A stretch of DNA of 64,000 nucleotides. Origin: Halapricum desulfuricans. Lineage in GTDB: Archaea; Halobacteriota; Halobacteria; Halobacteriales; Haloarculaceae. The DNA lies in contig NZ_CP064791.1 in NCBI RefSeq assembly GCF_017094465.1, forward strand, positions 1,798,001 through 1,862,000, given 5' to 3'. Below, one piece after another: positions 54,762-61,860 of the stretch. How positions within the stretch are numbered: position 1 is the first letter of the stretch; each line of letters begins with the position of its first letter. A program made the translations under genes and the position numbers. The notes below the pieces were generated by a model. The model did not search any database and was not told the origin of the DNA. It worked only from the letters and a program-made list of their open reading frames with translations.

Positions 54762-55364
54762 CTACTCGGCTTCGATATACGGCAGGTCCGCGACGGTCTC
54801 CTCGACCTTGCTCATGTTCGAGTACATGAGACTCGTCGTGTCCCAGATGCCCTCGACGAGCGCCTGCTGCATCGCGCCGTCGATCTCGACGTCGACAGTG
54901 GTGTCGCCGTAGGTGACCGTCTCAGCCTCGACGTCGATGTGGATGTCCTCGTCGGGATTGGCCTCGATCCACTCCTGGATCTCGGTGACGGTCTCGTGGT
55001 CGGCCGTGGCTGCGGGGATGCCGAGCGACTTGCAGTTGTCCCGGAAGATCTCGGCGTAGGACTCACCGACGACCGCGTCGATGCCCCACCGCATCATCGC
55101 TTGCGGGGCGTGTTCCCGGGACGAGCCCATCCCGAAGTTCTTGTTGACGACTGCGACGTTCGCACCCGCAAAGCGGTTCAGCGGGTGATCGTTGAACTCG
55201 CCGTCGTCGCGCCGGGCGTCATAGAAGAGGTAATCGGCCATGTTGTCGAAGGTGACCTCCTTCATGAACCGCGCCGGCAGGATCTGGTCGGTGTCGATGT
55301 CGTCGCCGTAGATCGGCACACCGGTCCCCGATACGTCCGTGATATGCTGGGGTTTGTCGACCAT
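54762..55364 (-). CDS. leuD: 3-isopropylmalate dehydratase small subunit
   Basis: 200 residues. Swivel domain of the aconitase-type enzyme: PIYGDDIDTDQILPARFMKEVT, then NFGMGSSREHAPQAMMRWGIDAVVGESYAEIFRDNCKSLGIPAA. With LeuC isomerises 2-isopropylmalate to 3-isopropylmalate in leucine synthesis. The start shares one base with the leuC stop. Last gene of the operon; leuB, usually next in Halobacteria, is absent here. Confidence 0.95.
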   Translation of the reverse strand: MVDKPQHITDVSGTGVPIYGDDIDTDQILPARFMKEVTFDNMADYLFYDARRDDGEFNDHPLNRFAGANVAVVNKNFGMGSSREHAPQAMMRWGIDAVVGESYAEIFRDNCKSLGIPAATADHETVTEIQEWIEANPDEDIHIDVEAETVTYGDTTVDVEIDGAMQQALVEGIWDTTSLMYSNMSKVEETVADLPYIEAE

Positions 55365-56827
55365 CAGTCAGCCACCTCCGAGACATCCTCGGCAGTCAGT
55401 GCATCCGCCCGGTCGTCGTAGAAGCGCCGCACGTCCGTGATCTCGCCCTCGACCGCCGCCGCGGCGACCATCACCGGGCTCATCAGGACCGTCCGGCCGT
55501 CCTTGGACCCCTGTCGGCCGATGAAGTTGCGGTTCGAAGAGGACGCGGCCGCCTCGTCACCTTCCAGAGAGTCGTCGTTCATCGCCAGGCACATCGAACA
55601 GCCCGCCCGTCGCCACTGGAAGCCGGCCTCGATGAACGTCTCGTCGATACCCTCGGCCTCACACTGACGGCGAACGGTCTCCGATCCGGGGACGGCCAGC
55701 GCACGCACGCCATCGTCGATGGTGTGGCCCTCCAGGATTTCGGCGGCGCGCCGGAAGTCGCTGACGCGTCCGTTCGTACAGGTGCCCAAGAATGCGACGT
55801 CGATATCGTAGCCCAGCATCGACTGGCCGGGTTCGATGTCCATGTGATCCAGCGCCTGCTGGGCGGCTTCTTGATCGGTCTCGGTCTCGAAGTCCTCGGG
55901 TGCGGGGACTGGCTCGGAGATCTCGACGACCTGCCCGGGATTGATACCCCAGGTGACCATCGGATCCATGTCGTCGACGTCGATCGTGACGACGTCGTCG
56001 TACTCGGCGTCCGCGTCGCTCGCGATGGACTCCCAGTACTCCTTGAGCTGTTCGAACTCCTCGCCCTCGGGGACGTACTCCCGACCCTTCAGGTAGTCGT
56101 AGGTGGTCTCGTCGGGGTTGATATAGCCCGCGCGAGCGCCGCCCTCGATGGACATGTTACAGACCGCCAGCCGGCCTTCCATACCGAGTTCCTCGATCGC
56201 GGGGCCGCCGTACTCGTAGACGTGGCCGACGCCGCCGTCGACACCCAGCTCCTGGATGATTTTCAGGATGATGTCCTTCGCGTAGACGCCCTCGTTGAGG
56301 CTGCCTTCGACCTCGATCCGCCGGACCTTCTGTTTCTCGGCGGCGATCGAGCCGGTCGCCAGGATATCCCGAATCTGACTGGTACCGACGCCGACCCCGA
56401 TCGAGCCGAAGGCGCCGTGGGTCGCCGTGTGGCTGTCACCGCAAGCGACAGTCATGCCGGGCTGGGTCAACCCCAGTTCCGGCGCGACGACGTGAGTGAT
56501 GCCCTGCCTGCCGGACTCGAAGTCGAAGAACGTGATGCCGTTCTCGGCCGTGTTCGTGTCCAGCGCGTCCAACATCTTCTCGGCCTGGTCGTCCTCAAGT
56601 GGCCGCTTGCGCTTTGCCTCCTCGGTCGGCGCGATGTGGTCGGTCGTCGCGAAGGTCCGCCCGGGATAGGCGACGTCGATGTCGCGCTCCCGGAGCATCC
56701 CGAACGCCTGCGGGCTCGTGACCTCGTGGACGAGGTGCAGCCCGATGAACAGTTGATCCTGTCCGTTCGGCAGTTCGGTTACCTTGTGCTTGTCCCATAC
56801 CTTGTCGTACAGCGTTCCTGAACTCAT
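55364..56827 (-). CDS. leuC: 3-isopropylmalate dehydratase large subunit
   Basis: 487 residues; carries the labile [4Fe-4S] cluster. Cluster cysteines are in FLGTCTNGRVSDFRRAAE and in RRAGCSMCLAMNDDSLEGDE (C-x2-C). Substrate motifs: VACGDSHTATHGAFGSIGVGVG, and the SNRNFIGRQGSKDG region. Divergence from homoaconitase cannot be excluded by sequence alone, but the leuD partner and the ilv context fix the role. Confidence 0.95.
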   Translation of the reverse strand: MSSGTLYDKVWDKHKVTELPNGQDQLFIGLHLVHEVTSPQAFGMLRERDIDVAYPGRTFATTDHIAPTEEAKRKRPLEDDQAEKMLDALDTNTAENGITFFDFESGRQGITHVVAPELGLTQPGMTVACGDSHTATHGAFGSIGVGVGTSQIRDILATGSIAAEKQKVRRIEVEGSLNEGVYAKDIILKIIQELGVDGGVGHVYEYGGPAIEELGMEGRLAVCNMSIEGGARAGYINPDETTYDYLKGREYVPEGEEFEQLKEYWESIASDADAEYDDVVTIDVDDMDPMVTWGINPGQVVEISEPVPAPEDFETETDQEAAQQALDHMDIEPGQSMLGYDIDVAFLGTCTNGRVSDFRRAAEILEGHTIDDGVRALAVPGSETVRRQCEAEGIDETFIEAGFQWRRAGCSMCLAMNDDSLEGDEAAASSSNRNFIGRQGSKDGRTVLMSPVMVAAAAVEGEITDVRRFYDDRADALTAEDVSEVAD

Positions 56828-56869
56828 TCGAAATCGTTGTCTCCGTTGTTTCGTTTCACTTACAATCCG

Positions 56870-57883
<1,014 letters not shown>

Positions 57884-57904
57884 AGGTGAATTCTCGGGGA
57901 TCGC

Positions 57905-58519
57905 TCAGTTATCGCTTTCCATTGTCGTCGCGCCCATCGTCTTCGAGCCGCGTTCGAGGGCGGCCGCGCCGGTGCGGACGATCTCGAGCACGTCGAACTG
58001 CTCGAAGGCCTCGATCGCGGCATCGATCTTCTGTTTGCTGCCGGTGATCTCGACAGTCACTGCGTTCGTCGAAGCGTCGACGGCGTCGCCACCGTACATC
58101 TCCGCGACCGCCTGCACGTCGTCGGGCTTGTCGCCGGCGACCTTGATCAGCGCCAGCTCACGGCGCATGGCCGCCGACTCCAGCTCCTCGACCTCGATGA
58201 CGGGGATGAGTTTGCGGAGTTGTTTTTTCGCCTGCTGGACGCCCGGCTCAGGCTCCTCGATGACGATCGTCATCCGGGCGGTGCCGTCGTCTGTCGTCGC
58301 GCCCACAGTGAGACTCTCGATGTTGAACTGCCGACGGCTGAACAGGCTGGAGACCTCAGAGAGGACGCCGGGCTCGTGTTTGACCAGCGCCGACAGCACA
58401 GCCATCCGTGGCTCGTGTGTCGCTTCCGCTTCCGGATCGACACGAATCCCCTGGGAGTTGCGCCGACCCTCGGGCCGCATCCGCTGGTCCGGGGCCGGAC
58501 CGGGCATTTCTCCGGGCAT
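57905..58519 (-). CDS. ilvN: Acetolactate synthase regulatory subunit
   Basis: 204 residues. ACT domain LSALVKHEPGVLSEVSSLFSRRQFNIESLTVG at about residues 42-75, which senses valine and controls IlvB, and then the C-terminal regulatory domain (ELALIKVAGDKPDDVQAVAEMYGG). The N-terminal 35 residues (MPGEMPGPAPDQRMRPEGRR) are a low-complexity haloarchaeal addition; an inner start is possible. Starts 1 bp after the ilvB stop. Confidence 0.94.
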   Translation of the reverse strand: MPGEMPGPAPDQRMRPEGRRNSQGIRVDPEAEATHEPRMAVLSALVKHEPGVLSEVSSLFSRRQFNIESLTVGATTDDGTARMTIVIEEPEPGVQQAKKQLRKLIPVIEVEELESAAMRRELALIKVAGDKPDDVQAVAEMYGGDAVDASTNAVTVEITGSKQKIDAAIEAFEQFDVLEIVRTGAAALERGSKTMGATTMESDN

Positions 58520-58520
58520 C

Positions 58521-60284
58521 TCAGATCATCTCCAGGTGCTGCTCGTTCAGGGCGAACAGTCCGTTGTCGCCGCCGGAGGGAACCATCGGGAAGACGTTCT
58601 CGGCGGGGTCGATGATCGCGTCGATCACGGCCGGGCCGTCGTACTCGCGAGCGGCCTGGATAGTCTCCTCGACATCTTCGGGATCTTCCAGCCGGAACCC
58701 GCGGGCGCCAAAGGCCTCCGCGAGCTTGTCGAACTCCGGCACCCACGGGTACTCGCTGGCCATCCGGCGGCCCTCGTAGAAGCCGTCCTGCCACTGGCGG
58801 ACCATCCCGATCGCCTCGTTGTTGAGCACGACGTAGGTGATATCGAGGTTCTCCCGGACCGCGACCGACAGCTCCTGCATCGTCATCAGGAAGGATCCGT
58901 CCCCGTCGAAGGCGACGACCTCCGTATCGGGGGCGCCGATCTTCGCGCCGATCGCCGAGGGGACGCCATAGCCCATCGTCCCCAGGCCGTTGCTGGAGAC
59001 CCACGTGCGCGGGTACTCGTAGGTCCAGAACTGGGCCGCCCACATCTGGTGTTGGCCGACGCCCGTGGTGACGATGGCGTCGTCATCGGCCAGTTCGTCG
59101 AACGTCTCGACGACGTGCTGTGGCTTGAGCGGTTCGTCGTCGGGCATCTCGTAGTCCAGCGGATACTCCTCGGTCCAGGTCCGGCACTGTTCGCGCCACT
59201 GATCGGCCGTCGGCGCGGCCGTCAGTGCGTCGTCGATCTGTTCGAGGACGCGCTCGGCGTCGCCGATCAGCGGGTGATCGGCTTCGATGTTCTTGGAAAT
59301 TTCGGCCGGGTCAATGTCGATATGGATGACGTCGGCGTCGGGTGCGAACGTGTCGACGCCGCCGGTCAACCGGTCGTCGAATCGGGTGCCGACACCCAAC
59401 AGTGCGTCACAGTTCGTGACGGCCATGTTGGCTGCGCCGGTCCCGTGCATACCGGCCATCCCCAGCGAGAGGTCGTCGGTCTCCGGGAACGTGCCGAGCC
59501 CGGGCATCGTCGTGATGACGGGGATCTCGTACTCGCGGGCGAACGATCGCAGTTCGTCGCTGGCCTCGCTCTTGATGACGCCGCCGCCGGCGAGGATGAG
59601 CGGTCGATCGGCCGCCTTTAGGGTCCGGGCCGCGGCCTCGACGGCCGACTCGTCGGCTTCGACAGGCTCGTCGTGGGTGTCCGGGGCCTCCGGCGGTTTC
59701 GGCCACTGGTCGGTCTCGCCTTTCGTGATGTCCTTGGGGAGGTCGACCAGCGTCGGGCCCTGCCGGCCCTCACGGGCCAGCGCGAACGCCTCGCTGACGT
59801 CGTCGCCGACCGTATCCGAGTGGTTGGCGAAGTAGTTGGCCTTCGTGACGGGCATCGTGATACCCGTGGTGTCAGTCTCCTGGAAGGCGTCGTTGCCGAC
59901 GAAGTCGGTCGCGACCTGGCCGGTCAGCGCGATCATCGGGTCCGAATCCATCGCCGCGTCGGCCAGCCCGGTGATGAGGTTCGTCGCACCGGGACCGGAG
60001 GTCGCCATCGCCAGGCCGGGTTCGCCCGTGACGATCCCGTAGGCGTCGGCCGCGTGGGCCGCGCCCTGCTCGTGGGCCATCGTGATGTGATGGATCGAGG
60101 AGTCGTACAGAGCGTCGTAGACGGGCATGATCGCGCCGCCCTGGACGCCGAATGCGTGGTCGACGCCGGCCTGCTCGAGCGAGGCGATGATCGCCTCCGA
60201 GCCCGACTCGACCGTTTCGATGCCGCTCTCTCGTTCAGGAACTTCTTCTGGGTCCCGCTTGGGAATCGATGCGCGTTCACTCAT
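58521..60284 (-). CDS. ilvB: Acetolactate synthase large subunit
   Basis: 587 residues; thiamine-diphosphate enzyme joining pyruvate to pyruvate or 2-oxobutyrate. HEQGAAHAADAYGIVTGEPG holds the catalytic Glu; FDGDGSFLMTMQELSVAVRENLDITYVVLNNE is the ThDP-binding motif. First structural gene of ilvBNC-leuCD. The start is the ATG at 60284. It is preceded by a 183-nt leader with a leader-peptide ORF and hairpin, described separately. Confidence 0.96.
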   Translation of the reverse strand: MSERASIPKRDPEEVPERESGIETVESGSEAIIASLEQAGVDHAFGVQGGAIMPVYDALYDSSIHHITMAHEQGAAHAADAYGIVTGEPGLAMATSGPGATNLITGLADAAMDSDPMIALTGQVATDFVGNDAFQETDTTGITMPVTKANYFANHSDTVGDDVSEAFALAREGRQGPTLVDLPKDITKGETDQWPKPPEAPDTHDEPVEADESAVEAAARTLKAADRPLILAGGGVIKSEASDELRSFAREYEIPVITTMPGLGTFPETDDLSLGMAGMHGTGAANMAVTNCDALLGVGTRFDDRLTGGVDTFAPDADVIHIDIDPAEISKNIEADHPLIGDAERVLEQIDDALTAAPTADQWREQCRTWTEEYPLDYEMPDDEPLKPQHVVETFDELADDDAIVTTGVGQHQMWAAQFWTYEYPRTWVSSNGLGTMGYGVPSAIGAKIGAPDTEVVAFDGDGSFLMTMQELSVAVRENLDITYVVLNNEAIGMVRQWQDGFYEGRRMASEYPWVPEFDKLAEAFGARGFRLEDPEDVEETIQAAREYDGPAVIDAIIDPAENVFPMVPSGGDNGLFALNEQHLEMI

Positions 60285-60374
60285 GGTCGATCACTGTGTG
60301 TTGGGTGTCGTGTCTGCATTGCTGGTTGCTGGGTTGGTAGTCGGGAGCGATACCGGCCGAAACGAAAAGGGGGT
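60285..60374 (-). promoter_or_regulatory. Unpaired spacer of the ilvB leader
   Basis: After the hairpin and T-rich tract the last 80 nt before ilvB are poor in G on the RNA strand (CAACCCAGCAACCAGCAATG and similar) and look unstructured. That would leave the ilvB start open once transcription passes the attenuator. Confidence 0.4.
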
Positions 60375-60399
60375 GTAGCGGGGCCTAACGGGCCCCTAC
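60364..60399 (-). terminator. Attenuator-like hairpin with T-rich tract upstream of ilvB
   Basis: In the RNA sense the stem GGGGCC (60396-60391) pairs with GGCCCC (60385-60380) around a 5-nt loop, extended by GTA with TAC (60399-60397 and 60377-60375) past a 2-nt bulge. Downstream comes CCCCCTTTTCGTTT, with TTTT at 60368-60365. It has the form of an intrinsic terminator, although haloarchaeal termination needs mainly the T-tract. It overlaps the last codons of the leader peptide: Val24, Gly25 and Ala26 form the left arm, and the stop TAG lies at the loop and right arm. Confidence 0.55.
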
Positions 60400-60468
60400 A
60401 ATACCGCCGAGAAGGACGAGCGCGCCGCTGGTGGCGGGGCGATCCCGGATGCCAGCGGACTGTGTCAT
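60385..60468 (-). CDS. Predicted ilv leader peptide (27 aa)
   Basis: ATG at 60468, stop at 60387-60385. Begins MTQSAGIRDRPATS and ends GALVLLGGIVGAR, so six of residues 17-24 are Leu, Val or Ile, the three products of the following operon. The TATA-like CCTTTATTATTCG (60504-60492) is centred about 29 nt before the ATG, so the mRNA should begin at the peptide's own start. It ends inside an attenuator-like hairpin. In bacteria such peptides control ilv and leu operons by ribosome stalling; here that role is inferred, and I know of no described archaeal example. Confidence 0.6.
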   Translation of the reverse strand: MTQSAGIRDRPATSGALVLLGGIVGAR

Positions 60469-60490
60469 CAGTACGTGAATCTGTCCGTCC

Positions 60491-60504
60491 CGAATAATAA
60501 AGGT
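60491..60504 (-). promoter_or_regulatory. Promoter of the ilv leader and ilvBNC-leuCD
   Basis: TATA-like CCTTTATTATTCG on the minus strand, preceded by CGGAA as a possible BRE. Distance to the leader-peptide ATG is about 29 nt, the value expected for leaderless haloarchaeal transcripts. Confidence 0.6.
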
Positions 60505-60636
60505 TCCGTGAGAGTCGATGTCGGGGCCGTGGGCGACACCGGGTGTGTGCCGGCGGCTGGTCGCCCGACGGATGGCGTGTCGACCAGTACCGCAGCCGCT
60601 GGTCAACCGCGAATGTGAACGCCGTCGGCGACATGG

Positions 60637-61860
60637 TCAGGCACGGACCTCCTCAGTTCGTGCGCGGTCGACGCCGACCTCGTCGGCGAACCGTTCGAGG
60701 ACGTCCAGCGTGACCTGCCGTTTCTCCGCGCCGTAGTCCTTGACGCGGCGGGTTACCTGCCGGACCTCCTCGTCGGTCGGGTTGTACCCGGCCTCGGTCA
60801 GCCGCTCGCGGACGGAGTGGGTGCCAGTGTGTTTGCCCAACACCAGTTCGCGTTCGGCCCCCACCATCTCGGGCGTCATCACGCCCGGCTCGAAGGTGTC
60901 AGCGTTCTCGATGACGCCGGCGGCGTGGATGCCGCTCTCGTGGGCAAAGGCGTTGTCGCCGACGACCGGCTTGTTCCCGGGAGTGGCGATCGAACTCTTC
61001 TCCTCGATGAGCCGTGACAGTTCAGTGATCCGGGTCGTATCGATCCCGGTGTCGACATCGTAGAGGCTCTCCAGCGCCATCGCGACTTCCTCGTAAGCGG
61101 CGTTGCCAGCCCGTTCGCCGATGCCGTTGACCGACACCTGCGCCTGAGCCGCGCCGGCCTCGTAGCCCGACAGGGCGTTTGCCGTCGCCAGCCCGAAGTC
61201 GTCGTGGGTGTGGACGTCCACGCGGGCGTCGGTGTGCTCGACGACCGTCCCGACCAGATCCTCGAACCGGCCGGGGGTCGCGACGCCCGTGGTGTCCGGG
61301 ATGTTGATCCAGTCGGTGCCCGCCTCGGAGACGGCCTCGACGACCTCGATCAGGAACGACTCGTCGGTCCGGGTCGCGTCCATCGGCGAGAACATGCACT
61401 CGACGCCGGCCTCTTTGACGCGCTCGACGGACTCGACCGCGCGGTGCAACGCGTCCTCGCGGGTGGCGTGCATGCTGTCCTGCAGTTGGACGTCGCTGGT
61501 CGAGACGAACACGTGAACCAGTTCAACGCCCGAATCGAGCGCCGCTTCGACGTCGTCCTCGACGACACGGGCCAGTCCACAGACGGTCGTCGAGGTCGAG
61601 GCGGCGATGTCCCGGACCGCCTCGAACTCCGCGTCGGAGTTGACGGGGAACCCGGCCTCGATGACGTGGGTTCCCATCTCGTCGAGCAGCGCGGCTATCT
61701 CGCGTTTGTCTTCGTAACTAAACGACGTACCAGGCGACTGCTCCCCGTCACGGAGCGTCGTATCGAAAATTCGTGCCTCGTCGATTTCAGAGGTGCTATC
61801 GAGTGTGCCCTGGAAGAACTCGATCCGCCGGAGACTCCGACGTGCCCTCGGTATGTTGGG
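60637..61860 (-). CDS. leuA: 2-isopropylmalate synthase with unresolved N-terminus
   Basis: The frame is open from 61860 to the stop at 60637 (407 codons). It holds all family motifs: RIFDTTLRDGEQSPGTSF, VHTHDDFGLATANALSG with metal-binding His, VNGIGERAGNAAYEE, and the C-terminal subdomain HESGIHAAGV to KHTGTHSVRERL. It makes 2-isopropylmalate from 2-oxoisovalerate and acetyl-CoA; citramalate synthase is an alternative. No ATG, GTG or TTG occurs in this frame before 61677, and a start there would delete the first barrel strand and the catalytic RDGEQ motif. The upstream TATA box serves an ATG at 61870 in another frame. The gene has therefore lost its start by a frameshift, or uses an unusual start or recoding. 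Confidence 0.75.
   Translation of the reverse strand, partial: PNIPRARRSLRRIEFFQGTLDSTSEIDEARIFDTTLRDGEQSPGTSFSYEDKREIAALLDEMGTHVIEAGFPVNSDAEFEAVRDIAASTSTTVCGLARVVEDDVEAALDSGVELVHVFVSTSDVQLQDSMHATREDALHRAVESVERVKEAGVECMFSPMDATRTDESFLIEVVEAVSEAGTDWINIPDTTGVATPGRFEDLVGTVVEHTDARVDVHTHDDFGLATANALSGYEAGAAQAQVSVNGIGERAGNAAYEEVAMALESLYDVDTGIDTTRITELSRLIEEKSSIATPGNKPVVGDNAFAHESGIHAAGVIENADTFEPGVMTPEMVGAERELVLGKHTGTHSVRERLTEAGYNPTDEEVRQVTRRVKDYGAEKRQVTLDVLERFADEVGVDRARTEEVRA

Follow-up and report, generated by a model that had tools for sequence, protein, structure and literature searches.

The closest described systems are the bacterial ilv/leu attenuators, that is, those of enterobacterial ilvGMEDA, ilvBN and leu and of ilvB in Corynebacterium and other actinobacteria (PMC1262725, PMC11857589), in which, as at the haloarchaeal locus considered here, a short ORF with regulated codons lies before ilvB and overlaps a GC-rich hairpin. 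The closest single case is the actinobacterial ilvB leader, which overlaps a hairpin (PMC1262725). Similar leaders are found at bacterial aminoacyl-tRNA synthetase genes, such as trpS and leuS in Streptomyces (PMC1262725), and this is also the situation in haloarchaea. The actinobacterial cys leaders encode a peptide without an obvious terminator; their regulatory codons lie close to the stop and a conserved hairpin is lacking, much like the haloarchaeal type B valS and pheS leaders described below, but they concern other amino acids in another domain of life, and Rho has been suggested to act there (PMC1262725).

For archaea, transcription attenuation is given as unknown in the open-access literature, in papers of which one dates from 2021 (PMC8448881, PMC4247193). 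A published list of uORFs in long 5′-UTRs of Haloferax volcanii includes ORFs of 23 and 26 aa before the genes for tryptophan–tRNA ligase and pheS, the same genes that carry the Trp- and Phe-rich leaders discussed here (PMC4983044, Table 2). That table treats them as potential small proteins and does not interpret them as attenuators; ilvB and valS are absent from it.

Results and Discussion

The window, a stretch of 64,000 nucleotides from Halapricum desulfuricans, contains in order a leuA-like gene, the leader, ilvB, ilvN, ilvC, leuC and leuD, with the neighbours confirmed by NCBIfam (Table 1). An earlier note on this DNA had proposed leader-peptide attenuation at ilvB, and the features that it described, namely a leaderless ORF of 27 codons, a hairpin that has the stop codon at the loop, and a pyrimidine tract, were all confirmed in place. 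The first T of the TTATNN box lies 32 nt before the ATG of ORF1, and exactly this spacing is found in 73 of the 98 leaders that were scored; given the fixed distance, the ORF1 transcript is predicted to be leaderless. The TAG stop of ORF1 falls mostly inside the CGTTA loop and for the rest in the right arm of the hairpin, which outer GTA/TAC pairs could extend to 60375. On its 3′ side follows CCCCCTTTTC, at 60373-60364 of the minus strand.

Table 1. Leader features and operon genes in the window
Feature	Position	Strand	Basis or remark
Promoter: BRE-like CGGAA (60508-60504) and TATA-like box TTTATTATT (60501-60493)	60493..60508	-	Window sequence
ORF1, predicted leader peptide MTQSAGIRDRPATSGALVLLGGIVGAR, then stop	60385..60468	-	27 codons; ATG at 60468; conservation of start, stop and frame
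Putative sensor codons ATT-GTA (Ile23-Val24), immediately before the stem	60397..60402	-	Ile conservation, codon rarity
Hairpin GGGGCC (60396-60391) / GGCCCC (60385-60380), loop CGTTA	60380..60396	-	Compensatory re-pairing
Pyrimidine tract CCCCCTTTTCGTTTC, candidate termination site	60359..60373	-	Tract enrichment after ORF1 stop
GYAYCG element (GTATCG), conserved	60348..60353	-	Count in ilvB leaders
ORF2 MQTRHPTHSDRP, then stop; TGA overlaps ilvB ATG (ATGA); candidate translational coupler	60281..60319	-	Conserved position
ilvB, acetolactate synthase large subunit	58521..60284	-	TIGR00118, 693.7 bits against a cut-off of 538.35
ilvN	57905-58519	-	Operon downstream of ilvB (rest spans 54762..58519)
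ilvC	56870-57883	-	Operon downstream of ilvB
leuC	55364-56827	-	Operon downstream of ilvB
leuD	54762-55364	-	Operon downstream of ilvB

The isolated hairpin has a folding energy of −13.3 kcal mol−1 (z −2.06), while the 192-nt leader folded as a whole is as stable as its shuffles (z −0.37). Comparison, and not folding, therefore has to carry the argument. No Rfam family, and thus no T-box or other known riboswitch, was matched at E ≤ 1 in positions 60000-60800 of the window.

A separate observation concerns the start of the neighbouring LeuA, at about 61880-61740 of the window (minus strand). In 30/30 family loci the conserved N-terminus RRIEFFQGTLDSTSEIDEARIFDTTLRDGEQ lacks the usual in-frame start, though one is found at a distance now and then. 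Another frame holds an ORF behind a TATA box, which runs from M to TEGTSESPADRVLPGHTR and a stop and is placed such that ribosomes shifting by +1 would pass from it into LeuA. Six species share the same sequence over about 65 nt at the overlap, third positions included. A programmed frameshift and a non-AUG start are both candidate explanations.

We now turn to the comparison of the ilvB leaders. In total, 171 distinct leaders, related to one another in sequence, were collected by GTAGGG-type patterns, and it is important to note that the invariance of GTA and GGG among them is partly built in, because the search pattern contains GTAGGG. An ATG is present in the ORF1 frame in 165 of the 171, against 5 and 0 for the other two frames, and in every one of them the stop comes 3 or 4 codons 3′ of GTA. 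The short ORF is thus conserved, with its translation a prediction, and it bears the regulated amino acids at its conserved C-terminal end, the N-terminal half being unconserved. The codon before GTA encodes Ile in 167 leaders (ATT 129, ATC 37, ATA 1), which places an Ile-Val pair directly 5′ of the stem, where a stalled ribosome could affect the hairpin. In the window genes GTA is a rare codon, making up 4.4% of those for Val, and ATT accounts for 8.9% of those for Ile; GTA is retained also in leaders in which the right arm offers it no pairing partner. The earlier note had instead taken Leu19-Leu20 as the sensor. This assignment had to be rejected: Leu is enriched nearby, being frequent at positions −3 to −7 with no single position fixed, and the conserved sensor is Ile23-Val24 (AUU-GUA), right against the stem.

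The residues after Val behave differently, as they follow the stem and not the peptide. The ends IVGA, IVGV, IVGP, IVGG and IVRA all occur, each with a re-paired right arm: GGGGC/GCCCC gives Gly-Ala, GGGGU with A or G gives Gly-Val, GGGCC/GGCCC gives Gly-Pro, GGGGG/CCCCC gives Gly-Gly, and CGGGCC/GGCCCG gives Arg-Ala. Compensatory re-pairing is seen in GGGCC/GGCCC, GGGGT/ACCCC and CGGGCC/GGCCCG. This indicates that the Ile-Val pair is conserved at the amino-acid level and Gly-Ala chiefly through its role in the stem. One exceptional leader (L103) has GTACGGGCC/GGCCCG, with the peptide ending in IVRAR before the stop. The usual TAG is lost in a valS leader (L186, genome G036) and in the Natronolimnohabitans ilvB leader (L404), where the peptides run on.

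The note had also pointed to a competing pairing between GCCCC in codons 10-11 and GGGGC of the left arm. It is present in the window but is not conserved: it occurs in 18 of 121 leaders, with 16.9 expected by chance from codon shuffles, and it was therefore discarded. As GCCCC was the tested partner for a mutually exclusive antiterminator, there is no evidence for one of the bacterial type.

As regards distribution, ORF1 and the hairpin are kept in 6/6 genomes of the genus. The regions upstream of 111 ilvB genes of the family were read without use of the motif, and GTAGGG(G/C)(C/U) was found in 108 of them, the remaining 3 being variants; conservation in close relatives, on which the note had made its proposal depend, is thus observed. 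A covariance model built from 32 of these 111 leaders, the E-values of which are rough, matches 385/391 Halobacteria genomes and 81/84 genera at E ≤ 1. At E ≤ 0.01 across the phylum it matches 68/72 Halobacteria against 7/224 other members, those 7 all weak, which makes the element class-wide. It was found in all seven haloarchaea inspected by name (Halorubrum salsamenti, Natrialba asiatica, Haladaptatus halobius, Halolamina rubra, Natronolimnohabitans innermongolicus, Halovivax sp. KZCA124 and a Halobacteriales MAG) and in 0/73 bacterial ilvB upstream regions. In a scan of 20 genomes for the exact GGGGC...TAGCCCC hairpin at sites other than ilvB and valS, no TATA-led leader appeared among the matches examined, and the reversed control pattern was commoner than the hairpin itself.

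Second matches of the covariance model lie ca 100–130 nt upstream of the valyl-tRNA synthetase gene. These valS leaders have the GGGGC hairpin and end in V-F-V-G-A, V-R-V-G-A or V-V-V-G-A (V-x-V-GA). In 29/30 further loci there is another form, type B, with 9–13 residues, tandem GTA-GTA, then Arg (CGN) and the stop, and without the conserved GGGGC hairpin; that of the window's own genome reads MALMSSVVR. No valS leader is present in genomes G162, G212 and G258. The hairpin is also retained in four extra ilvB copies, in which VFV-GA or II-GA replaces IV-GA; the sensor in these paralogue leaders is ATT-ATT or TTC-GTA in place of ATT-GTA.

The genes pheS and trpS were examined after the Haloferax uORF list (PMC4983044). 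Since their ORFs were chosen by Phe or Trp content, the upstream regions of other genes served as controls. The pheS leaders end in GFGFFF in 17/28 loci, compared with 0/115 control regions, and WRW occurs in the leaders of one trpS type in 8/10 cases, compared with 6/133 elsewhere. The pheS leaders have neither the GGGGC hairpin nor the pyrimidine tract, and as type B valS also lacks the hairpin, the output may differ between leaders. For ileS, no leader was found in 20 genomes, the TATA box standing directly before the gene.

The stretch between the hairpin and ilvB was described in the note as an unstructured spacer, but it is not empty. Pyrimidine runs and TTT are enriched 15–45 nt past the ORF1 stop and nearly gone beyond 60 nt, and this concentration just past ORF1 is seen in ilvB, valS and trpS leaders alike. 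The tract is rich in pyrimidines but is no clean U run: the share of leaders with TTTT does not exceed 18% in any bin. It is followed by the GYAYCG element, present in 79/120 ilvB leaders against 7.9 expected, usually 29–35 nt (ca 32) past the ORF1 stop, and in 5/8 trpS leaders. Finally, ORF2 begins ca 80 nt past GTA, a distance that hardly varies across the class, and ends in a stop that overlaps the ilvB start; this arrangement is seen in 26/30 complete family loci and in 42/52 further loci, which share a few genomes with the family set.

By comparison, then, the element is a conserved ORF with its start, stop, Ile-Val pair and compensated stem, and with amino-acid matching across ilvB, valS, pheS and trpS leaders. 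On these sequence grounds it is very probably an amino-acid-sensing leader. The leader-peptide attenuation proposed in the note is in this respect strongly supported, including by the matched valS, pheS and trpS leaders, while its sensor codons and its competing pairing were wrong.

The following mechanism can be envisaged, in which the stalling, the polarity and the output are steps that we infer. The leaderless transcript would begin approximately at the ATG of ORF1, and its first ribosome would translate this ORF close behind the RNA polymerase. The sensor would be the Ile-Val pair (AUU or AUC, then the rare GUA), which immediately precedes the stem GGGGC...GCCCC on the 5′ side. As long as charged tRNA-Ile and tRNA-Val are abundant, the ribosome would reach UAG and leave, the hairpin would form, and expression of ilvBNC-leuCD would be cut, in all likelihood because transcription ends prematurely in the pyrimidine tract that follows. 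When either charged tRNA runs short, the ribosome would halt with AUU or GUA in the A site. A ribosome covers ca 16 nt past the start of the P site, a general footprint value and not a haloarchaeal figure, and the downstream edge of the halted one would thus cover the left arm and the loop, so that no hairpin forms and the operon is expressed. A stall at AUU-GUA would in this way mask the left arm and a finished ribosome would free the stem, which corresponds to an operon that is on under starvation and off under supply. We consider it probable that the element is a ribosome-mediated amino-acid attenuator with charged-tRNA sensing and this polarity, whichever the output.

That the output is premature transcription termination is an even call. 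In Haloferax volcanii, termination takes place at T stretches that end in C, and a hairpin tested in that organism gave 59% termination (PMC7237163). Against termination, the U run is not a clean one, no antiterminator is conserved, and termination by itself does not account for the constant place of ORF2. The same sensor could instead have a translational output, with the mRNA at full length and the ORF1 ribosome controlling translation of ORF2 and, through the ATGA coupling, of ilvB, either via the hairpin or by reinitiation. We regard this as possible rather than probable. It would account for the placement of ORF2 and for the weak U tract, and structure ahead of the ORF2 and ilvB starts could matter, though the hairpin includes neither start. 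Conserved pairing of the hairpin arms with the ORF2 start was, however, not found, the tract is concentrated just past ORF1 as expected for a termination site, and ORF2 might be just the means by which translation is initiated on a leadered mRNA that lacks an evident Shine-Dalgarno site. With the unclean U run, the hairpin-less type B valS and pheS leaders, the position of ORF2 and the GYAYCG element, the translational output remains a serious rival. To our knowledge, Rho is absent from archaea, and a candidate counterpart at such leaders is aCPSF1/FttA.

Other explanations leave out charged-tRNA sensing altogether. Arrest by the nascent peptide, in which IVGA in the exit tunnel would stall the ribosome on free isoleucine or valine regardless of tRNA charging, is quite unlikely: it fits the conserved C-terminal end, but the residues after Val vary with the stem (IVGV, IVGP, IVGG, IVRA) instead of being conserved independently of the RNA structure, the N-terminal half is unconserved, and the other leaders are unrelated peptides matched in amino acid, as codon sensing would have it. 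A binding site for a regulator on DNA or RNA, Lrp-like or other, falling by chance within a small ORF, could explain why ATTGTAGGGGC is strongly conserved at the base level, with GTA kept also in leaders whose right arm cannot pair with it. Yet the frame, the start, the stop position and the third-base variation of Ile are all kept, the stem changes are compensated, and the related valS leaders retain Val and not Ile, which makes such a site very unlikely. Finally, the position between leuA and ilvB, with a hairpin and a pyrimidine tract, would suit a terminator of the upstream leuA transcript beside an unrelated small protein gene. This is hardly credible, as a TATA box of its own precedes the element at a fixed distance, the element also occurs upstream of valS, and a bare terminator would not preserve the ORF1 frame.

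Conclusion

Compared with the bacterial ilv/leu attenuators, the haloarchaeal element has an archaeal host and promoter, a leaderless start, a single short hairpin and no conserved antiterminator. Its sensor is one or two codons (with the rare GUA) and not a run, a pyrimidine tract stands in place of the U run, and a conserved ORF2 is putatively coupled to ilvB. Although it would work like bacterial ilv/leu attenuation, we do not file it as a member of that class, since no antiterminator is conserved and the terminator is a candidate one.

It is fairly likely that the Halobacteria possess a class-wide network of ribosome-mediated attenuators, matched to their genes (Ile and Val for ilvB, Val for valS, Phe for pheS, Trp for trpS), built from leaderless uORFs and having an output unlike the bacterial one, such as termination by aCPSF1/FttA that the stalled ribosome blocks; it would be the first in archaea. 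An amino-acid gauge would thus stand before the isoleucine, valine and leucine synthesis genes in nearly all Halobacteria, of a kind well known in bacteria and not yet documented in archaea in the open-access literature. If this is true, a simple and tractable test would be possible in Haloferax volcanii. The gauging of aminoacyl-tRNA by a ribosome on a leader ORF would then also exist in the other prokaryotic domain, where termination by hairpin plus U run is not the rule, and this would imply close coupling of transcription and translation on leaderless archaeal mRNAs.
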